From positions 1-32,732 of the forward strand of contig SLIM01000030.1 in assembly GCA_007135625.1 (NCBI GenBank): DNA of 32,732 nucleotides, given 5' to 3'. Shown here one piece after another: positions 3,038 to 31,337 of this stretch. The notes under the pieces are model-generated. The model was not told where the DNA came from. It saw only the letters and a program-made list of their open reading frames with translations, and did not search any database. The first letter of the stretch is position 1; the number at the start of each line of letters is the position of its first letter. Both the position numbers and the translations under genes were made by a program. This stretch comes from Gammaproteobacteria bacterium (GTDB lineage Bacteria > Pseudomonadota > Gammaproteobacteria > Chromatiales > Chromatiaceae).

Positions 3038-4249
3038 TCAACTCTTGGCCGGAGCCTCATCCTCAAGGGTGTCGGGGAGTACCTTGAGCATCCGCGAAGC
3101 GATGGCGACCATCATCATAGAGACCGTCACTCCGGCAACTCCGAGGGCAAACTCGGCGAAGGTTGGGACGTAGCGGGCAATTTGACCATCCATCATGCTG
3201 CTTTCGAGGACATCTTTGCCCGGGAAGAGGTTCATCGGGTAGGCCTGCCCGCCGATAAGAAGGATATAGATCAGGGCAAAACCGCCGATCAGGGTACCTA
3301 CAGCGGCGACGAGTACCGCAGTGCGTGACTTCTCGAAGGCGGGGGAGTAGATCAAAAAGAGCGGCACGATGGTGCCGAGGATCAGGTAGCCAAACCAAAA
3401 AAGCAGCGGATAGATACCGCCACTGACCAGGAAGAAGCTCGACAGGTCGGCGTGGCGGGCGGCGTAGAGGTTGGTCAGGTGGTAGACGGCGACGAAGTAG
3501 AAGACACCGCCGATAAAGACCCCGAGCAGGTTCTTGAGCTTGGCGATGCGCAGGTCGCCGATGCTGCGCTCGGCCCACCAGTAGGCGGCCATGAGGGCGA
3601 CGATGAAGAAGGCCAGGCCATAGGCGAAGGACATGACGATAAACATCGGGGCGAGAATTGCCGCATCATACGCCTCACGCGCAACTAGGAAACCGAAGAT
3701 GGAGCCGGTACCGGTGGTGAGGATGAGTCGCCAGAAGAAGGCAGCAAAACCGAGCGGTTTGTAGTAGTGGTTTACGCTGCGATCCATCATGCTCCACAGG
3801 TAGGCTCCGACAATGGCGAAGAAGCCGGTGTAGAGGATAATGTTCCAGGCAAAGATCGACTTGAAGTTGTAGGTGGTCATTGCCACGATCAGGCGATCCG
3901 GGCGACCGAGATCGAGCAGCAGCACCATCAGTCCACCCGCCAGCAGGCCAATCGCCAGCAGCGCCGAGAAGCGCCCCAGCGGTTTGTACATCGGCCCGCC
4001 GAAAACCGAGCCGATGGAGGCGACATTGAGGGCACCGGAGGCGGCGACAATTAAGAAAATAGCGAAGACATGGGGGATACCCCACACCACATGGTTGGTC
4101 ATGCCGGTGACCCAGTGACCGTTATGCTCCATGTAGAAGGCGGAGAGCAGGCCGATCAGCACGACACCGGCCATTGCGCCGAGACCGAACCAGTAGCGCC
4201 GGGGGTCGCACCACAACTCGCGATAATGCAATCTATACATCGAATTCAT
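3038..4249 (-). CDS. dsrP: DsrP, NrfD-like integral membrane subunit of DsrMKJOP
   Basis: Polytopic membrane protein of about 403 aa; position after dsrO; NrfD-like character. Confidence 0.93.
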   Translation of the reverse strand: MNSMYRLHYRELWCDPRRYWFGLGAMAGVVLIGLLSAFYMEHNGHWVTGMTNHVVWGIPHVFAIFLIVAASGALNVASIGSVFGGPMYKPLGRFSALLAIGLLAGGLMVLLLDLGRPDRLIVAMTTYNFKSIFAWNIILYTGFFAIVGAYLWSMMDRSVNHYYKPLGFAAFFWRLILTTGTGSIFGFLVAREAYDAAILAPMFIVMSFAYGLAFFIVALMAAYWWAERSIGDLRIAKLKNLLGVFIGGVFYFVAVYHLTNLYAARHADLSSFFLVSGGIYPLLFWFGYLILGTIVPLFLIYSPAFEKSRTAVLVAAVGTLIGGFALIYILLIGGQAYPMNLFPGKDVLESSMMDGQIARYVPTFAEFALGVAGVTVSMMMVAIASRMLKVLPDTLEDEAPAKS

Positions 4250-9939: not shown

Positions 9940-10039
9940 CGTCCCGAGGCCCTCAGTTTCTTGAAGAGAACCGGGAGGCGGCAGGCCCCCCGATCACAAC
10001 GACAAGGATAAGCAGTTATCCCGTGCCGGAGACCGTACG

Positions 10040-10071
10040 GGGCAGTGATAACCATGCGGTCACCACTGCCC
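10040..10071 (-). promoter_or_regulatory. intercistronic RNA hairpin between dsrC and dsrM
   Basis: Minus-strand RNA GGGCAGUGGUGACC-GCAU-GGUUAUCACUGCCC forms a continuous 14-bp stem with two G:U pairs; no U-tract. Confidence 0.75.
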
Positions 10072-10082
10072 TGCCGCTGGTT

Positions 10083-11628: not shown

Positions 11629-12714
11629 TTAGAAGCGAATGTGAGCGGAGGCATTGAGGTTGTTACGGCTGCCGCGCCAGTTATCAATGTGATACTTGGT
11701 GAAAGGCAGACCGGTCTTCTCGAAGAAACGCGCCCAACCGATCCGCTCGGCCCACTCGCCAAGGCGCTCCCAATCGCGTGCATCCTCTTTGTAGACTTTG
11801 AGGATGTTTTTGACCACTTCGGCGACCTCAGGCCAGCGCGGTGGATTGTTGGGGAGACCGGCGGCGACCAGTTTGTGGAAGGTTGGCTTGGAACGTGCAT
11901 TCGAGTTCTTGCCACCGACCCAGATGGCCAGCTTGGAGTGTTCGGGGTCGTTAATCTGCATCGGCGGGCAGGGCGGGAAGCAGGCACCGCAGCAGATGCA
12001 CTTGCGCTCATCGACCTCTAGCGAGGGCTTGCCGTTGACCAGCGCCGGGCGGATTGCGGCGACCGGGCAGCGGGCAACCACGGCGGGGCGCTCGCAGATG
12101 TTGGCCACTTGGGTGTGGTCGATCTTGGGGGGCTTGGTGTGCTGGATGTTGATCGCAATGTCACCCTGACCGCCGCAGTTGATCTGGCAGCAGGAGGTGG
12201 TCATGCGGACCCGGTTGGGCATCTCTTCGTGGGTGAACTCGTGGTACAGCTCATCCATCAGCGCCTTGACCGCGCCGGAGGCATCGGTACCGGGGATGTC
12301 GCAATGCAGCCAGCCTTGGGTGTGGGAGATCATGGAGACCGAGTTGCCGGTGCCACCGATGGGGAAGCCTTCGGCTTGCAGCTTGTCGATCAGCGGCTGT
12401 ACCTTGGACTCCTCGGAGAGCATGAACTCAATGTTGGAGCGGATGGTGAAGCGGACATACCCTTCGGCGAACTGGTCGGCGATATCCATCAGCTTGCGGA
12501 TGGTGTAGAGATCCATCTGGCGCTGGGTGCCGGCACGCACCGTCCAGATCTCGTCACCGGAGTGGGCGACGTGGTGCAGCACACCGGGACGCGGGCGGTC
12601 GTGCCACTTCCAGTTGCCGTAGTTCTTTTTCAGTACCGGATGCAGGTAGTCCTGGATATCGGGTACGCCACACTCATCGGGCATACGAGGTGCATCAGCC
12701 ATTATAACCTCCAA
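11629..12714 (-). CDS. dsrB: dissimilatory sulfite reductase beta subunit
   Basis: Siroheme/Fe-S Cys motifs (TTSCCQINCGGQGD), ferredoxin domain (CICCGACFPPCP). Confidence 0.97.
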   Translation of the reverse strand: MEVIMADAPRMPDECGVPDIQDYLHPVLKKNYGNWKWHDRPRPGVLHHVAHSGDEIWTVRAGTQRQMDLYTIRKLMDIADQFAEGYVRFTIRSNIEFMLSEESKVQPLIDKLQAEGFPIGGTGNSVSMISHTQGWLHCDIPGTDASGAVKALMDELYHEFTHEEMPNRVRMTTSCCQINCGGQGDIAINIQHTKPPKIDHTQVANICERPAVVARCPVAAIRPALVNGKPSLEVDERKCICCGACFPPCPPMQINDPEHSKLAIWVGGKNSNARSKPTFHKLVAAGLPNNPPRWPEVAEVVKNILKVYKEDARDWERLGEWAERIGWARFFEKTGLPFTKYHIDNWRGSRNNLNASAHIRF

Positions 12715-12742
12715 ATATTCGTATAAACCGTTTACTATCGTT

Positions 12743-12771
12743 TACATGCGGCCTCAGCGAGACCGCATGCA
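12743..12771 (-). promoter_or_regulatory. intercistronic RNA hairpin between dsrA and dsrB
   Basis: Minus-strand UGCAUGCGGUCUC-GCU-GAGGCCGCAUGUA forms a 13-bp stem including two G:U pairs. Confidence 0.65.
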
Positions 12772-12789
12772 GTCAGCCGGGGAAGAGAC

Positions 12790-14031
12790 TCAGGCGGAGG
12801 CCCGCTCACTCCACTTAGCCGCCTCTTCGTCCCAATCATCAGTGCGGACGTAGGGGTTCATGCGTGGACGCTCGATCATGTTCGGATCGATCTCCAGGCC
12901 AACACCTTCCAGGAAGTTGGTCAGTCCGATGCGCTCAATCATCTCGCCAGTGCGCTCATGCTCCAGGGCGTTGTCGGCGAAGAACTCCAGAATCTCAGAG
13001 GCCAGCTCCTCCAGCCACTCGAAGTCTTCATCGCTTTCGAGTTTGTGGAAGGGGACGATAACGGTACCCATCAGGTCACCGATCTTGAGGGTGCGCTTGC
13101 CGCCGCAGAGCAGGGTGATGCCCTTGTCGTCACCTGGCGAGAGGGCCTTGGTCATGACGTTAATGCAGTGCATACAGCGCACGCACGACTTGTTGTCCAC
13201 CGCCAAGGTGTCGTCGTCATTGAGGCTCAGCGCCTGGGTCGGGCAGCGGGTGATGACGTTGTCGATGGTGTACTTGCGGCCCGCCTTGGCGACATAAGCC
13301 TTGACCTCTTCCTGATCGACCTTCATGTCGTCACGCCAGGTGCCGATCACTGCGAGGTCGGCCCGCTGCACCGAGTTCATGCAGTCGTTGGGGCAGCCGG
13401 AGACCTTGTACTTGAACTTGTAGGGGAGCGCCGGACGGTGCATGTCGTCAAGGGCGTTGTTGACCAGGGCACGCATGGTACGTCCTTCGTCGATGCAGGA
13501 CTGCTCGCAACGGGCAGCACCGACGCAGCTCATGCCGGTACGCACCGCCGGGCCGGCACCGCCGAGATCGAAGCCCATTTCGTTGATTTCGTCAAAAGCG
13601 GGCTGAACATTTTCGCTGGTGCAGCCCTGGAACATAATGTCACCCGACTGACCATGGAAGGCGATCAGGCCAGAGCCGTACTTCTCCCAAATGTCGCAGA
13701 ACTTGCGAATGGTGTTGGTATCGTAGTGCATTCCCGGAGGTGGCATCACCCGCAGGGTGTGGAACTCCGCAGCCGCAGGAAATTTCGGCTTGCCATCTGC
13801 GCCTTTCAGTTCGGTAAAGCGTGGAATGATCCCGCCGCCGTAGCCGATCACACCAACGGTGCCGCCCTTCCAGTACCCTTTGCGGGTTTCGTAGGAGGTT
13901 TCAAGCTGGCCGAGAAGATCGACCATCATGTCGTTGTCGTTGGCCAGCCGCTTGAGGCCGGTTACAAAGCTCGGCCACGGTCCGCTCTCCAGTTGGTCGA
14001 GCATCGGGGTCGCATGCATCGGTTTCGCCAT
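12790..14031 (-). CDS. dsrA: dissimilatory sulfite reductase alpha subunit
   Basis: MAKPMHATPMLDQLESGPWPSFVTGLKRLA...; siroheme Cys motifs (CVGAARCEQSC; CPNDCMNS) and ferredoxin CVRCMHC. Confidence 0.97.
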   Translation of the reverse strand: MAKPMHATPMLDQLESGPWPSFVTGLKRLANDNDMMVDLLGQLETSYETRKGYWKGGTVGVIGYGGGIIPRFTELKGADGKPKFPAAAEFHTLRVMPPPGMHYDTNTIRKFCDIWEKYGSGLIAFHGQSGDIMFQGCTSENVQPAFDEINEMGFDLGGAGPAVRTGMSCVGAARCEQSCIDEGRTMRALVNNALDDMHRPALPYKFKYKVSGCPNDCMNSVQRADLAVIGTWRDDMKVDQEEVKAYVAKAGRKYTIDNVITRCPTQALSLNDDDTLAVDNKSCVRCMHCINVMTKALSPGDDKGITLLCGGKRTLKIGDLMGTVIVPFHKLESDEDFEWLEELASEILEFFADNALEHERTGEMIERIGLTNFLEGVGLEIDPNMIERPRMNPYVRTDDWDEEAAKWSERASA

Positions 14032-14532
14032 CAGTACAGTCTCCCGTAGGTTTCGGTAGAAAATCTAGGGACTCCGATTCGTCGGGGGACTCCCCGATTG
14101 CAGATCCTGTTGATCCATGATCTCGCCAGACTGCTCTCGAAATCCAGAACCCGGATTGTCCAGTGGCCACTCGGTGGCGAACTGGAATGTGGAGGGCGAA
14201 GTTTAGAAGTTCCTAATGCGTTACAATATCCCCCTGATGGGGTGATCGCCCAACAGGCCAATCTATCCCTAAGGAGATATTTTAATTAACAGGTAAATAG
14301 AAGTAAAAATCTCGATGGAGGCACCAACTCCTTCATAGAACGTGATATTCGACACTCTTTTGGACCTCTTTCAACTCTGCCCAAAAGACATAAAACAATA
14401 CTATTACAGAAACATTAAATGGACTTATTCCATAAATACTGAAGAGTTGTCACTCGCCCTAGAGAGACCGATATTTGCCCCATACGGAGGGCAGCACCCC
14501 AAAGCCCCCTTTTACCATCGGGAGAATTCGCC

Positions 14533-14709
14533 ATGCTGTATTTGAGTGAGTTGCTGATTCAAAACCCTGACCTAGAGAGTTTTGAGCAGCTCTACCGGCT
14601 AGTCCTAGAGAGCAAACAGCGCGAGATGTTCTTTCGCATTGATGTCAAACCCCCCTTCCCCGACACCCCGGAGAACTGGGAAGACCGCCTTGAAGCGGCC
14701 TTTACCTAA
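14533..14709 (+). CDS. small hypothetical protein (58 aa)
   Basis: ATG MLYLSELLIQNPDLESFEQLYRLVLESKQREMFFRIDVKPPFPDTPENWEDRLEAAFT stop; GGAG upstream; below the ORF-track cutoff. Confidence 0.6.
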   Translation: MLYLSELLIQNPDLESFEQLYRLVLESKQREMFFRIDVKPPFPDTPENWEDRLEAAFT

Positions 14710-14746
14710 GCGTCGCTTCACCGCGCAATAAAAAGGATTATTATCC

Positions 14747-15457
14747 GTGAAATACCTCGACATGGAGCGCCTCATCGGCCAGCCATCCGCCCCCCCTAGC
14801 GACCCGCGTACCGTATCTACGTTACTCGCCGCCCAGCTTGGTGAGCTTGAGGATGCGCTCTCCGCCCTGCCCACCGACACGCCGCTGAGCGAACGCAACC
14901 GGCTCCAGCTTCAGTGCGGCTACACCCTGTTGGATCTAGGGCGCAACCCAGAGGCGTGGCAACGCACTCGCCCGCTCTTGGAACCCACCGTAGCGGCGGA
15001 AAACTGGCTGCAAGCGGTCGAGATCTGCGATATTCTCTACCGCAGCGAGCAGCACGAGTCGCTCAAAGCGCTTGCCCACGGGGTGTGGCTGGGGGTAACC
15101 TACCCCATTGACCCTGAACTGAGCGTGGCGATGCTGCAACATATTGTCGAAGAGACCCCCGACCACTCCGACGGCGGAGCGGTTGCCGCTGCGGTTGCCA
15201 ACTACTTGGTCGATCTGCGCGCCAGCGGCGAGCAGCGGGAGACGCTCCACTTCTTCACCACCCAACTGCTCGGCGAGGTCGCCCGTCGCCACAGCCAGGT
15301 CGAAGAGAAGGAGATTTTCGACTTTTGGGTCGAACAGTTGGCGCTCAATGACCCCGCCAAGCTACTTCCCCACCTCGCCAAGATGCTTGATCTGCTGGTC
15401 ACCGATGGCTGGTGGTTTGACCGCGACCAACTGCGTAGCCGTATCCCTGAGGCATAA
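14747..15457 (+). CDS. hypothetical all-helical protein (236 aa)
   Basis: GTG start with AAAAGGA SD; TPR/HEAT-like helical composition; tightly followed by the Cas6-like gene (7-nt gap). Confidence 0.8.
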   Translation: MKYLDMERLIGQPSAPPSDPRTVSTLLAAQLGELEDALSALPTDTPLSERNRLQLQCGYTLLDLGRNPEAWQRTRPLLEPTVAAENWLQAVEICDILYRSEQHESLKALAHGVWLGVTYPIDPELSVAMLQHIVEETPDHSDGGAVAAAVANYLVDLRASGEQRETLHFFTTQLLGEVARRHSQVEEKEIFDFWVEQLALNDPAKLLPHLAKMLDLLVTDGWWFDRDQLRSRIPEA

Positions 15458-15464
15458 CATAGCA

Positions 15465-16130
15465 ATGTATTGGCAACAACCGGACGAGGATGACCCGCAG
15501 CAGTTTAGCGTACCCGAGCGGGTCATTGATCTCCACTTTCGCATCGAGTGCCCCGCCCTGCCGGTCGATCACGGCTGGCTGCTCTTTAGCGCTCTGCGTC
15601 CCCACCTACCGTGGCTGGAGCAGGAGCCGGGCGCGGGTATCCACCCCATTCACACCGCCGAGAGCGGCAACGGCTGGAGCCGACCCGAGCAGCGCGATGC
15701 GCTACTCTACCCCTCGCGTCGCACCCCGCTGGTACTGCGCCTGCCCCGCTCGCGCCTGCACGAAGCCCAGCAACTGCGGGGTACCACGCTCACTCTCGGC
15801 GACTTCTCTCTGACCCTTGGCCAAGCCACTGTGCGCCCCCTGCACAAGAGCCGCACCCTGCACGCCCGCCACCTCGGCTACCCCGATGCCGACAACGAAG
15901 CGCACTTTCTGGAGCAGGCGGTCAACGAACTGCGCAGTCTTGATATCGGTTTTAAAAAAGTCCTCTGCGGACGCGACCACACCCTGCGCAATGGCGAACA
16001 GGAACTCGCCACCCGCTCACTGATGGTCGCTGACCTCACCCTAAGCGATGCCGTCCGACTTCAGGAGCATGGACTCGGCCCCTTTCGCCATCTCGGCTGT
16101 GGCCTGTTCATTGCCCACAAAGCGGTATAA
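15465..16130 (+). CDS. orphan Cas6-family protein (Cmx6-like)
   Basis: ATG at 15465 inside ORF 15144..16130; VIDLHFRIECPALPVDHGWLLFSALRPHLPWL...GAGIHPIHTAES...PLVLRLPRSRL...C-terminal Gly-rich LQEHGLGPFRHLGCGLFIAHK. Confidence 0.7.
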   Translation: MYWQQPDEDDPQQFSVPERVIDLHFRIECPALPVDHGWLLFSALRPHLPWLEQEPGAGIHPIHTAESGNGWSRPEQRDALLYPSRRTPLVLRLPRSRLHEAQQLRGTTLTLGDFSLTLGQATVRPLHKSRTLHARHLGYPDADNEAHFLEQAVNELRSLDIGFKKVLCGRDHTLRNGEQELATRSLMVADLTLSDAVRLQEHGLGPFRHLGCGLFIAHKAV

Positions 16131-16176
16131 ACTACCTAACGTTCCAATCCCATCCACCAGCAGCAAGGAGAACAAC

Positions 16177-16521
16177 ATGGCTTACGAAATCAACGGTAAA
16201 ACCATCGAAACCACGGAGAACGGCTACCTCGTCACTCTCGAAGAGTGGAGCGAAGAACTCGCCACCGCCATCGCCGCCAACGAAGGGATCACCCTCTCCG
16301 AAAAGGCGTGGGAGATTATTCACTATCTGCGTGACGAATACTTTAACAATAACCAGAACCAGCCCAATGAGCGGACGATGGTGAAGCACTTCAAAGGGGT
16401 CTGGAGCGACCTGCCCAAGGTCGATGCCAAGACCCTCTACGAACACTTCCCGATGGGACCGGCCAAGCAGGCGGGCAAGATCGCCGGACTGCCGGAGACC
16501 AAGCGCAAGGGCGGCTACTGA
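16177..16521 (+). CDS. DsrC/TusE-family protein lacking both C-terminal cysteines (RspA-like)
   Basis: MAYEINGKTIETTENGYLVTLEEWSEELA...FPMGPAKQAGKIAGLPETKRKGGY, compared with DsrC ...FPYGPGKQACRFAGLPKPTGCI in the same window; SD aaggag. Confidence 0.9.
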   Translation: MAYEINGKTIETTENGYLVTLEEWSEELATAIAANEGITLSEKAWEIIHYLRDEYFNNNQNQPNERTMVKHFKGVWSDLPKVDAKTLYEHFPMGPAKQAGKIAGLPETKRKGGY

Positions 16522-16773: not shown

Positions 16774-17664
16774 ATGCAGCACAGCCCCTTCGACCTCACC
16801 AACCACGACCTCTACCAGCGCTGGCGGGAGTATAAACTGCGCTGGGCCGATACGCCCCTAGAGGGGCGCATCGTCGAGATTCGCGACCCGCGCCACCTCA
16901 CTTCCAGTGAGTACCGTGCCCTGCTGGAGCGTTGCCAGCGTTACAACTTCGCCCTCTATCGCAGCACTACCGGCAACGATCCCGATCCCCAGATTCCGCT
17001 CCACCTAGGCCGTGCCCTTGGCCTGCAACAACTGGATCGTAACTGGCTCGGCGACCAGGCGAGCGGACTCACCCGCCTTACCGTCCGCCATGAAGGGGTG
17101 CGTCAACACTACATCCCCTACACAAACCATCCGATCCGTTGGCACACCGACGGCTACTACAACCCCCCCGAGCGCAACATTTACGGGTTAATCCTGCACT
17201 GTGTCGAGTGTGCCGATGGGGGCGGCGACAATGGACTTTACGACCATGAACTGGCCTACCTCCAGTTGCGTGATGAAGATCCCGACTACCTCCGCGCCCT
17301 GATGCGCCTTGATGCAATGACTATTCCTCCGCGTCAGGATGAACAGGGTACCTCCCGCCCTGCCCAGAGCGGCCCGGTCTTTGCGATCACTCGCGAGGGC
17401 GAACTGCACATGCGCTTCACCGAGCGCCAGCGCAATATCGCCTGGCACCCGGAGCTGCAAGCGGCGGTAACCCGTCTGCGGCAACTCCTCGAAAACCACC
17501 AGCCCGCCCTGCGTGGCTACCTGCAACCCGGCATGGGGCTGGTCTGTAATAATATTTTGCACGACCGCAGCGGCTTCGCCAGCGACTCCCCGCGCCTGCT
17601 CTACCGTGGCCGCTATTACGACCGCATCGCTAATACTGGATTTGCTGTGATTTTGGGGAGGTAG
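16774..17664 (+). CDS. TauD/TfdA-like Fe(II)/2-oxoglutarate dioxygenase family protein
   Basis: WHTDGYY (HxD) and downstream NNILHDRSGF (distal His) with R-rich C-terminus. Confidence 0.75.
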   Translation: MQHSPFDLTNHDLYQRWREYKLRWADTPLEGRIVEIRDPRHLTSSEYRALLERCQRYNFALYRSTTGNDPDPQIPLHLGRALGLQQLDRNWLGDQASGLTRLTVRHEGVRQHYIPYTNHPIRWHTDGYYNPPERNIYGLILHCVECADGGGDNGLYDHELAYLQLRDEDPDYLRALMRLDAMTIPPRQDEQGTSRPAQSGPVFAITREGELHMRFTERQRNIAWHPELQAAVTRLRQLLENHQPALRGYLQPGMGLVCNNILHDRSGFASDSPRLLYRGRYYDRIANTGFAVILGR

Positions 17665-17720: not shown

Positions 17721-19448
17721 TCAATAGTGCATATCCACCTGCACCCCCAACAGCTTCTCCGCTTCGGAACGATCTCCAAGCGTCAGCACAACGTTTTTAT
17801 CGATCAACCTCCGCCGCTCTTCTGCCGTTAGGTACTCCTCCATTCCCTGGATCTGATCTTCATTGAGCGTAGCGATGTACTGGCCTTTGCGCTTTTGGGT
17901 TATTGCCTCGGCGATACGAAAGGCCTCCGCTCGCTGCCGTGGATCCATATCGCTAAAGAGGCGGCTATCGTGGACTACGAAGTCGATATGGTGGTTACAT
18001 CCCGCTATGAGCAGGGTAAGGTCGTAACAGAAGATACGGACTTCGTTGATGCCGTCGGAGGCATCGTTCTCGATACGAACCTCAAAGTCGAAGCGAACCT
18101 GATTTTCGCGATGATTGTTGTGCAAAGTCAGTCCGGCGGGAGAGTCGGGATAGAATCGGCGGCTTAACCCTTTGAATACGGAATTAATCCTCTCTAGCTG
18201 GACGTGGATTTGTGCGAGATATTGGTTGGTTCGAAGCACTTCTTGCTGCATCGCGCCCTTGATCGTTGCCAACTCATCGCTCCAGCGGCGACCCAGGGTG
18301 CGGTAGTCGCGCAGCTTCTGCGCCTTGGCTTTGAGTGCAGCAATTTCACCTCCGATAACGATGAAGTAATCTAGCGCCCGACTACGCCCGAGATAGGCGC
18401 TCTTTTCGTTTAGCGCGTCACTTAACTCGCGAATGCTGCGCTCCTGCACCGCCAATTCCTGCTCTAAACGCCTCCGTTCCTGGGTGAGTCGAGTGATGCG
18501 GTTGGTGATCAGTTGCTGGTGAAAGTCCTGCACCTCGTCAAGACGACGCAGGGTTTCGGGGCGAAAGGCCGCGCCGACCTCCTGGTAGGCCACCTTGATA
18601 CGATCCGGGGCGATGTCGGGACGAATTTTAAGACTCTCCTCGATGTTGTTGATCGCGTTGCGCAGGAGTACGGCCCGGTTGCCTAGAGCCTGTAACTCGA
18701 CACCGAGATCGTTGGCCTCCTTTTGTATCTGGTAGTAGTCCTCAGCGACCTGGAAGGATCGCTGATTTTCCTCCAGCTCGGCGATGCGCTCCTCCAGAAA
18801 GGAGAGCTCGATATCTACGTCCTTGTTGGCGGTGTAGAACTCGCGCAGTAGCGGGTCGCTCTTGAGGCTCTTTTCTGACTTTCGGATGTTATCCAGGCGT
18901 TGGTAAAGCCGGGCCTTCTCGGCGACCAGCTCAACATCGAGTCCGAGCAGAAAGATGTTTCGGATCAGTTTGTTGTAGGGCGACTGGTCGCTGTTGGTGT
19001 ATTCAGCCTGAACGTAGTCGGCCTTATTGCGCCGCAGAAACTTGTAGAGCAGGCCGCGAAAACTCAATCCTTCAATACCGAGAGGAAGGTCGAAGGTGAG
19101 TTCTGCCAGCCGCTCACAGTATTCGCGAAGTTGCAGATCCTGGCCGTCAAAAATGACGCTGTTCTGACGGCTGGTGTTGCGCTGTACCCGGTGGAGGACA
19201 CCAGAGATCTCAAAAGTAAGGGTGAACACCCAATCCGGAATGCTCTCCTGGAACGCGTTGTTCCTATTCGATCCCAGACAGAAGTGGATTAGGACAATGG
19301 CGAGGGATTTACCAACGCCGTTGTAGGTCTTATCGTTATCCACGTCACCCTTGCACGAGCGGCCACCGACGATCAGGCTGACCCCTTCGCGATTGAACCG
19401 AATAGTCCGAAAGGAGGAGCGGTTAGCGCTCAGTTCGATGAAACGCAT
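17721..19448 (-). CDS. ABC-3C system ABC ATPase (DUF2326-like)
   Basis: Walker A-like NGVGKS, long coiled-coil middle, C-terminal IDFVVHDSRLFSDMDPRQ Walker B-like. Confidence 0.85.
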   Translation of the reverse strand: MRFIELSANRSSFRTIRFNREGVSLIVGGRSCKGDVDNDKTYNGVGKSLAIVLIHFCLGSNRNNAFQESIPDWVFTLTFEISGVLHRVQRNTSRQNSVIFDGQDLQLREYCERLAELTFDLPLGIEGLSFRGLLYKFLRRNKADYVQAEYTNSDQSPYNKLIRNIFLLGLDVELVAEKARLYQRLDNIRKSEKSLKSDPLLREFYTANKDVDIELSFLEERIAELEENQRSFQVAEDYYQIQKEANDLGVELQALGNRAVLLRNAINNIEESLKIRPDIAPDRIKVAYQEVGAAFRPETLRRLDEVQDFHQQLITNRITRLTQERRRLEQELAVQERSIRELSDALNEKSAYLGRSRALDYFIVIGGEIAALKAKAQKLRDYRTLGRRWSDELATIKGAMQQEVLRTNQYLAQIHVQLERINSVFKGLSRRFYPDSPAGLTLHNNHRENQVRFDFEVRIENDASDGINEVRIFCYDLTLLIAGCNHHIDFVVHDSRLFSDMDPRQRAEAFRIAEAITQKRKGQYIATLNEDQIQGMEEYLTAEERRRLIDKNVVLTLGDRSEAEKLLGVQVDMHY

Positions 19449-19684
19449 CGTTGCAGTCTCCCATTTCGATTAAGCGTGATAACGCCCAACGCGAACAGCA
19501 TATCCACGCTCAGTACAAGATTGTCAAAGCTATGGTTGGCAGGGAAGGCACCGCTCTCCATCTGCGGATGCAATTCATTCCAGAGCGCGTCAATGCTCTT
19601 GGGGGCCTCCAGCGACTCAAGCACTAGCGCACCCAGTCCCAGCAGGGACTCAGAAAAGCGGATATGCTTATCAGGCAGTAACAT
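19430..19684 (-). CDS. ABC-3C middle component (MC6-like)
   Basis: MLLPDKHIRFSESLLGLGALVLESLEAPKSIDALWNEL...; start trimmed to the ATG one nt after the upstream stop; overlaps ATPase start. Confidence 0.8.
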   Translation of the reverse strand: MLLPDKHIRFSESLLGLGALVLESLEAPKSIDALWNELHPQMESGAFPANHSFDNLVLSVDMLFALGVITLNRNGRLQRCVSSN

Positions 19685-19685
19685 A

Positions 19686-20648
19686 TTAGTCCTCGGGGTT
19701 CTCGAAGAGGTCGCAAGATTCAAAGAAAAAGGCCATAATCGTCAAAGCAACATCTTGCAGCGCTTTGCGCTTGCGTGGATCCTCTGTTTCTGGGGTAATT
19801 CGGCGCAAGATTTCGATAAAACGCTGATCGGAAAGCGTAACTCCATCGGAGACCGCACAAGGGTGAGATTCGGCCCGCATTGCGTCAAGATAATACCCGT
19901 TTAGGGTATCTCGGATGGCTTGGCGGGTGAAGTCGCTATTGGCAGCAAAATAACCCTCCACCGATCCTGCCTGATAGGATGCGGTATTGAGCCAATGACC
20001 GGTTACCCCTAGGCCGTTAAAGCGTATCTTGTCATCGAAGTTCGGCACTCTGAGACGTCCTGTTTGGGTTAGATCAACGGGATGATCCAGCACATGGCGA
20101 ATTACCGTGTTTAGGTCTGCGTAATTGAGCAGAGTGATCGACTCCGGATCTGGAATGAAACCGATGATCGACAACATTCCCTCTTCAGTCAGCGAGAAAA
20201 ACTCGTTCTCAAGGTGCTTGGTAAGAAACGGCTCGCAGCGATCCAAGGCGTAGCGTTGACGGATTCGCTCCATCGCCTCATGGATGCTGGGAAACACCGA
20301 ACCCCGGCAGCGGTCGTTGAGGACGAAGTAGAACTCACGGATACCGCTGGGAAAGATACCCGACCAGTGGGCGTAAAGCCCCTGAAAATCGGTCTCCAGC
20401 TTGCAGATGGCATCCTGCTCTCGATTACGTAGCTCCTCCGGCGCATACACTTGGAAATAGCGACCTGCCATCGGCTCAAATCCATCGTTCTTGCGGTCGC
20501 CGAAGGCACCCTGGGGCTTGGTCTGCCGAAAATCGCGGCGGGCGGCGGACATGATCTCCGTAAAAAGTTGCTCGAACTCACTGCCGGAAGCCTTGAGAAT
20601 CTGGTTCCTGAGGATAAGGCGGGCGATCTGTCGCTGATTTAAGTCCAT
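19686..20648 (-). CDS. ABC-3C effector/C-terminal-domain protein with putative REase-fold N-terminus
   Basis: EFEQLFTEIMSAARRDFRQTKPQGAFGDRKNDGFEPMAGRYFQVYAPEE N-terminus plus helical C-terminal domain; operon with MC6 and ATPase. Confidence 0.8.
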   Translation of the reverse strand: MDLNQRQIARLILRNQILKASGSEFEQLFTEIMSAARRDFRQTKPQGAFGDRKNDGFEPMAGRYFQVYAPEELRNREQDAICKLETDFQGLYAHWSGIFPSGIREFYFVLNDRCRGSVFPSIHEAMERIRQRYALDRCEPFLTKHLENEFFSLTEEGMLSIIGFIPDPESITLLNYADLNTVIRHVLDHPVDLTQTGRLRVPNFDDKIRFNGLGVTGHWLNTASYQAGSVEGYFAANSDFTRQAIRDTLNGYYLDAMRAESHPCAVSDGVTLSDQRFIEILRRITPETEDPRKRKALQDVALTIMAFFFESCDLFENPED

Positions 20649-21642: not shown

Positions 21643-21862
21643 TCCTGGAACGCCTGCGCTGATTTCCCTCAATGTAGGTTTAACGACAGTGATCGACGGG
21701 TACCTCGTGCTGCCCTATACCCGCCATCACCGCTCCGTTCTGCCCTCCCTCCTCTACCACACCCCATTCTACCCCAAAACGGGGAACGCCCTCCGTCATT
21801 TCCATCGAATTTGGGAATAACCGGTTACCTCGCCGCTCCATTTCGCTATAATCTTCCCCTAA

Positions 21863-22012
21863 TAGAACCCCTCTGGGAGTCGCAACACAAATACAATTAA
21901 GTAACAAGATTTTAAGGAGAGTGTCGCCGATGCGTTATAGAACCCCCTCTGGAGTCGCAACATGAGCATCATTAAACAACAAGATTTTGTGGAGAGCATC
22001 GCCGATGCGTTG
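21863..22012 (+). repeat. 75-bp imperfect tandem duplication (x2) of the fumarase 5' region
   Basis: Copy 1 21863-21937 and copy 2 21938-22012: tagaaccccc..tggagtcgcaac...acaagatttt..ggagag..tcgccgatgcgtt. Confidence 0.92.
21930..21965 (+). CDS. candidate leader peptide MRYRTPSGVAT
   Basis: AAGGAG at 21914-21919, ATG at 21930, TGA at 21963-21965 overlapping the fumarase ATG (ATGA). Confidence 0.4.
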   Translation: MRYRTPSGVAT

Positions 22013-30538: not shown

Positions 30539-31189
30539 ATGTCCCACGCCACCACCACCAGCGACAGCAACGGCGACAGCGAACCCCGCGAACCCCTCCC
30601 TCCCCTGCCCACGTGGAAATGGCTGCTGCTGCTGATCGCCCTACTGTTCGGCATCAGTGGAGCGATTCTCTACTGGCTAGCCCCCGAACCACCTCCTGAG
30701 CCGCTCCCCTTGACCCCACTCAGCAGCGAGCGCCCCACCCTGCACAACCCCCTGCTGCCCTACTCCCTACTCCCCTCGGTACAAAGCTTCCAAGGCCCCG
30801 CCACCCACTCCTTCATCGGCCCCCTCGGCGAGTCGGGAGAGGGGCTACAGGAGATTCGGCAGTTCGCCGAAGAGCAGTTGGGGATGGTCGAGTGGTCTGC
30901 CTTTTTGATGAAACTCGGCTTCAGCTTCCTCGTCGGCTTTAGCATCGGCTACGCCCTCGCTGGATTTTTGCGCCTCACCCTGTTCCTCTTCGGTGCCATT
31001 CTGCTCCTGCTCTTCGGCCTGCAATACGCCGGTCTGATTGAGGTCAACTGGATCGGCATGGAGCAGCTCTACGACCGCTTCATCGAGTGGCTCGCCCCCC
31101 ACATCGGCAGCTTTCGCGACTTCATCACCAGCAACCTCAGCTCCTCGGGAATGGCCGCCATCGGCTTAACCATCGGCATTAAGCGCTAA
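30539..31189 (+). CDS. FUN14-like membrane protein
   Basis: FLVGFSIGYALAGFLRLTLFLFGAILLLLFGLQYAGLIEVNW...; start trimmed to ATG at 30539 with ccaggag SD. Confidence 0.7.
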   Translation: MSHATTTSDSNGDSEPREPLPPLPTWKWLLLLIALLFGISGAILYWLAPEPPPEPLPLTPLSSERPTLHNPLLPYSLLPSVQSFQGPATHSFIGPLGESGEGLQEIRQFAEEQLGMVEWSAFLMKLGFSFLVGFSIGYALAGFLRLTLFLFGAILLLLFGLQYAGLIEVNWIGMEQLYDRFIEWLAPHIGSFRDFITSNLSSSGMAAIGLTIGIKR

Positions 31190-31324
31190 TGGGATCAATG
31201 ACCTCGCAATGGCCGCCATCGGCCTAACCATTGGTATTAAGTGCTAATGGGATCAATGACCTCGCAATGGCCGCCATCAGTCTAACCATTGGTATTAAGC
31301 GCTAACAGGATCAATGACCTCGCA
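31151..31324 (+). repeat. 58-bp tandem repeat x3 covering the 3' end of the FUN14-like gene
   Basis: Units begin at 31151, 31209, 31267: atggccgccatc..taaccat.gg.attaag.gctaa..ggatcaatgacctcgca. Confidence 0.95.
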
Positions 31325-31337
31325 GTAGCGCCCGAGC

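Follow-up and report, generated by a model that had tools for sequence, protein, structure and literature searches.

Cas6 is a CRISPR RNA processing enzyme. The Cas6/Cmx6 proteins of type I-MYXAN systems, which are related to type I-B and are covered by the family models TIGR02807 and PF09559, have a solved relative in the Cascade complex of a type I-B CAST (8fcj and 8fcu). Their fold and Gly-rich loop are also those of the protein studied here, designated Cas6L. DsrC homologues devoid of cysteine have been named RspA and are regarded as regulatory. We analyzed a stretch of 32,732 nucleotides from a member of the Chromatiaceae (assembly GCA_007135625.1, contig SLIM01000030.1), hereafter the window, which contains a reverse-type dsrABEFHCMKLJOP operon in the standard order. 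The operon is located on the minus strand, with dsrA at 12790–14031 (TIGR02064, 555 bits), followed by dsrB, E, F, H, C, M, K, L, J, O, and P down to position 3038.

Divergently from dsrA, four closely spaced open reading frames (ORFs) on the plus strand encode p58 (14533–14709; 58 amino acids), p236 (14747–15457; 236 amino acids, GTG start), Cas6L (15465–16130; 221 amino acids, with His36 and a C-terminal Gly-rich loop, GLGPFRHLGCGLF), and a DsrC-like protein (16177–16521; 114 amino acids). The gaps between these ORFs are of 37, 7, and 46 bp. This arrangement had been recognized in a first-pass annotation of the window, which overlooked a fifth gene of the cluster encoding a TauD-like Fe(II)/2-oxoglutarate dioxygenase (16774–17664, plus strand; PF02668, 67 bits). 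The four ORFs are considered to be genes because all of them were conserved in related loci: p58, p236, and the cysteine-less DsrC-like protein were present in 78, 48, and 69 of the 94 Cas6L loci, respectively. The TauD gene is elsewhere mostly the first gene of the module, and the metal-site motifs of its product, HTDGYYN and NNvLHxR, were conserved in 62 copies. Synteny of the module was conserved in approximately 100 loci, with the variant order Cas6L, DsrC-like protein, rhodanese, 206-residue helical protein, and TauD in L002 and L164.

Beyond the TauD gene, the minus strand harbors an ABC-three-component (ABC-3C) locus (17721–20648) encoding a DUF2326 protein, an MC6 middle component, and a CTD10 protein. 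This locus, which adjoins the dsr module, is a candidate conflict system. Short tandem repeats were also observed: a 75-bp unit is present twice at 21862–22011, upstream of the ORF at 21962 and overlapping its start, and a 58-bp unit occurs three times where another ORF ends (31150–31329).

The product of the gene at 15465–16130 is a Cas6 in both family membership and fold. The protein matched PF09559 with 194 bits (E=3.5e-57) and TIGR02807 with 109 bits, above the cut-off of 98.85, and was called Cas6 by Pfam, NCBIfam, and PADLOC. A sequence search of the PDB retrieved the Cas6 chain of a type I-B Cascade (8fcj_B; E=1.4e-9, or 8.8e-30 with a profile). The AlphaFold (AF2) model, of mean pLDDT 92.9, comprised the tandem ferredoxin/RAMP fold with the Gly-rich loop. 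Its best Foldseek match in the PDB was a Cascade Cas6 (8fcu_B; E=1.3e-17, TM 0.78/0.81), and all remaining matches at E<=0.001 came from Cas6 or from Cascade complexes. The profile search and structure prediction that the first-pass annotation had proposed as checks bore out its Cas6 assignment, and the lack of a RAMP fold that it had named as a refutation was not observed. His36 is, by analogy with other Cas6 proteins, the presumed catalytic general base of Cas6L. It was retained in 91 of the 92 dsr-type copies and in every aligned CRISPR-type copy, the L002 protein having an Asn at this position. The Gly-rich loop was conserved as in the CRISPR relatives. Two features, the insert SGNGWxRP found in most members and the tail PHKxI, were conserved in dsr-type Cas6L and absent from CRISPR relatives.

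The distribution of Cas6L was determined in 369 genomes belonging to the class of the window's organism, presumably the Gammaproteobacteria, with a threshold of E<1e-30 for dsrA. PF09559 was detected in 118 genomes, dsrA in 119, and both in 111 (odds ratio ~480; Fisher p=7e-75, a value inflated by the phylogenetic non-independence of the genomes). The dsrA gene was located within 6 kb in 77 of the 94 Cas6L loci. Among 249 genomes sampled from the phylum, PF09559 was found in only three, in each case divergent from dsrA. Co-occurrence, the locus survey, and the phylum sample led us to reject a chance neighborhood of Cas6L and dsr. The seven genomes with Cas6 only contained the module in whole or in part, on short contigs in six cases and near a contig end in the seventh (G195), and most of the contigs with dsrA only broke off directly after this gene. 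Within the window's family, five of the six Cas6L-negative genomes lacked dsrA, one of these five being only 83% complete, and the tested genomes with an unlinked Cas6L copy did contain dsrA. A natural loss was observed in a near-complete genome of this family (G039, loci L039/L188), in which dsrA and TauD were present and no Cas6L was found.

Cas6L was unlinked to dsr in five dsr genomes (G052, G059, G100, G177, and G391), and its persistence there argues against mere hitch-hiking with the dsr genes. Two of these genomes (G177 and G391; loci L118 and L119) are small, 1.4–1.5 Mb, and have Cas6L beside cell-housekeeping genes, p58 being likewise unlinked. Cas6L was also kept in genomes of ~1.0–1.1 Mb. 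In the phylogenetic tree, 84 dsr-type Cas6L sequences formed one group (support 100/99), apart from the CRISPR Cas6 proteins of G044, G059, and cyanobacterial plasmids. The proposal of the first-pass annotation that this Cas6 had been repurposed in connection with dsr is therefore upheld by the 111 genomes containing both genes, the separate tree group, and the conserved synteny. A lineage of the Cas6 fold has almost certainly been taken over by the reverse-Dsr sulfur-oxidation pathway, of which it is a fixed companion in a conserved operon.

The partners of Cas6L were analyzed individually. p58 had no match in Pfam or NCBIfam and is a new small protein family, with the consensus MLxLSEILLQ...GExFFRMDVKPPFxDTPExWEDRLEAAF and 55–71% identity between the window copy and relatives across the class. 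A p58 profile detected the protein in 106 of the 369 class genomes, 105 of which were Cas6L-positive; in the sole exception, the contig ended after p58. The AF2 model of p236 (pLDDT 93.7) was all-helical, and the fold search returned weak matches to TPR-like proteins and designed repeats, none with E<=0.001. Trp and Arg were invariant in an alignment of 46 rows, and p236 accompanied about half of the Cas6L loci. The possibility that p236 is a Cse2/Cas11 small subunit was rejected: weak PF09485 matches were obtained for 10 of the 46 relatives and none for the window copy, and Cse2 was absent from the 50 best fold matches.

The DsrC-like protein belongs to the TusE/DsrC family (PF04358, 112 bits; TIGR03342, 97 bits). 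The window copy, as stated in the first-pass annotation, and also 63 of 73 relatives had no cysteine at any position, and the C-terminal sequence RKGGY was conserved. The window protein lacks the conserved C-terminal Cys of the DsrC/TusE sulfur carriers and, being devoid of cysteine, cannot therefore serve as a thiol sulfur carrier.

The region between dsrA and p58 was inspected for conserved elements. Of 77 intergenic regions, 43 contained a single exact copy of a palindrome, TATCCC-N4-GRGATA (14264–14279; TATCCC-N4-GGGATA). In these 43 loci, columns conserved at a fixed position from the palindrome revealed a TAnAnT -10-like box (TAAACT, 14200–14205, minus strand) of the presumed dsrA promoter, and a second dyad (~14227–14247) lies between the two. 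The palindrome was located upstream of the -10-like box, at constant spacing from this box and the second dyad, and occurred at about one site per genome. It is probably the operator of a transcription factor acting at the presumed dsrA promoter, judging from this arrangement of the sequence. A role as RNA-hairpin substrate of Cas6L was also considered; constant spacing and the single occurrence per genome fit a DNA operator better. On the dsr strand, substitutions that preserved G-U pairing were in 8:2 excess (by eye), a number too small to decide.

No conserved RNA target of Cas6L was found in the leaders or gaps of the dsr operon and the module. In the leaders of dsrA and of the module, a k-mer search picked up ribosome-binding words and AT-rich promoter-like words and nothing else. 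The gaps between dsrA and dsrB (12700–12789) and between dsrC and dsrM (9940–10082), together with their relatives, were predicted to form more stable structures than shuffled controls (mean z of -1.6 and -2.3, respectively, compared with near 0 to -1.3 for other dsr gaps), with no common sequence visible between the structures. These structured gaps could be attenuators, stabilizing hairpins, or processing sites.

Retention of the nuclease His and of the Gly-rich loop for RNA binding makes it most likely that Cas6L binds RNA, and its association with dsrA points most economically to control of dsr RNA. Grimm et al., as cited in PMC3397948, reported transcript levels of dsrEFH and dsrC above that of dsrA in A. 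vinosum, so that the operon does show uneven expression on which such control could act. The target would be a particular RNA stem-loop, most probably within a dsr transcript, which Cas6L would bind and at which it would probably cleave, thereby setting the level or stoichiometry of the dsr gene products. The DsrC-like protein would report the state of the pathway or contact DsrAB or DsrEFH, and p236 and p58 would act as assembly partners. We hold this RNA-processing mechanism only tentatively and would sooner doubt it than assert it. It is weakened by the failure to find an RNA target, the strongest element looking like a DNA operator. We also count against it the Asn replacing His36 in L002, the persistence of Cas6L away from dsr (L043, L052, L062, L118, and L119), and the presence of a CRISPR array in the window's own genome. 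The statement that combines takeover by dsr with an RNA mechanism is, in our judgment, evenly balanced between true and false. Its most explicit form, according to which a CRISPR RNA endonuclease domesticated as a devoted post-transcriptional regulator of core energy metabolism is gated by the cysteine-less DsrC-like sensor, has p58 and p236 as partners, and cleaves specific RNA according to sulfur flux in most rDsr oxidizers of the class, is conceivable and on balance doubtful.

Two other roles for Cas6L appear unlikely to us, to the same degree. Cas6L might act on RNA other than that of dsr, maturing or trimming a small RNA or tRNA needed during sulfur oxidation, in a manner akin to TusE. 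TusE is a DsrC homologue acting in tRNA sulfur modification (PMC3397948), so that a connection between DsrC-like proteins and RNA has a precedent, and the retention of unlinked Cas6L in the five dsr genomes listed above is consistent with such a role. However, the DsrC-like protein of the module has none of the cysteines that sulfur transfer requires, and no further RNA family was recognized in the window. Alternatively, Cas6L might have lost RNA processing and, as a scaffold or binding component, form a complex for assembly or maturation of Dsr together with p58, p236, and the DsrC-like protein. The TPR-like and DsrC-like nature of its partners, the insert and tail absent from CRISPR relatives, which suggest a new interface, and the negative search for an RNA target all speak for this role, whereas the conserved His36 and Gly-rich loop would be needless for a pure scaffold.

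The relation of dsr-type Cas6L to CRISPR was examined at the level of the window, the genome, and the class. As reported in the first-pass annotation, the window contained no CRISPR array and no other cas genes, according to an array search and a reading by eye of the larger ORFs; in particular, cas3, cas8, cas7, cas5, and cas4/cas1 were not found beside Cas6L. Cas6L was not significantly associated with Cas1 in the 369 class genomes (p=0.08). The first-pass annotation had also envisaged that a CRISPR locus elsewhere in the genome might be served by this Cas6. This objection retains some force for the window's genome, in which a CRISPR array and fragments of Cas1 lie on other contigs; it fails for the clade, which follows dsrA rather than Cas1. 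One of these contigs (L099, G000:C360, 205–4958) carries the array, with a 37-nt repeat (GTTTGAATGGGTGCCCTGATTAAGAAGGGATTAAGAC), and a Cas1 fragment; a neighboring ORF displays weak similarity to prokaryotic viperins. The window Cas6L may have an extra, moonlighting role in crRNA processing in its own genome. In G059, of the window's family, a true I-MYXAN-like operon (cas6-cas3-cas8b-cas7-cas5-cas4/1) coexists with a dsr-type copy, and G044, of the same family, likewise combines a similar operon, with its own CRISPR Cas6, and a dsr-type copy. That Cas6L just serves a CRISPR-Cas system encoded elsewhere in the genome, its adjacency to dsr being accidental, is highly improbable: the array, the Cas1 fragments, and the single PF09559 gene of the window's genome speak for it, and against it stand the absence of Cas1 from 61 of the 111 genomes with dsrA and Cas6L (a count that Cas1-less CRISPR systems would escape), the detection of PF09559 in only 1 of 83 genomes with Cas1 and no dsrA (G195, which bears a dsr-type module), the separate tree group, and the distinct CRISPR Cas6 owned by G044 and G059.

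A mobile origin of Cas6L was considered and rejected. No phage matches were obtained, and the plasmid matches were cyanobacterial Cas6 proteins, CRISPR-linked in 6 of the 7 loci examined. On plasmid pGMOR1 of Gloeobacter morelensis (L184, 2977–5175), a PF09559-type Cas6 was observed next to a PAPS-reductase-family gene and genes for hypothetical proteins, with no cas genes in the stretch examined. It is perhaps another non-CRISPR Cas6.

A stable Cas6 clade whose distribution tracks a metabolic pathway, and not CRISPR, would clearly exemplify the use of CRISPR-type machinery for housekeeping metabolism. In this class, most genes matching PF09559 and TIGR02807 do not belong to CRISPR, so that annotating Cas6 automatically, or compiling statistics on orphan cas genes, gives a misleading picture. 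Through the module, a pathway central to the sulfur cycle gains several uncharacterized proteins, retained even in genomes of ~1 Mb, and the regulation of dsr expression becomes accessible to direct tests.

Within the partial coverage of our literature search, neither the TauD-p58-p236-Cas6L-DsrC-like module as a component of dsr nor any link between Cas6 and dsr was found. The system is not CRISPR, although Cas6L is a Cas6 by family and fold. CRISPR Cas6 and Cas6L have in common the His of a DH motif near the N-terminus, and identity to cyanobacterial CRISPR Cas6 is 24–29%. The DsrC-like protein belongs by sequence to the family of DsrC and TusE, but ends in RKGGY without the C-terminal Cys. 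In contrast to the Cas6 of I-MYXAN systems, Cas6L has no adjacent cas genes or array and is instead encoded in an operon with TauD, p58, p236, and the DsrC-like protein; it follows dsrA, not Cas1, and forms its own tree group, characterized by the insert SGNGWxRP in most members and the PHKxI tail.
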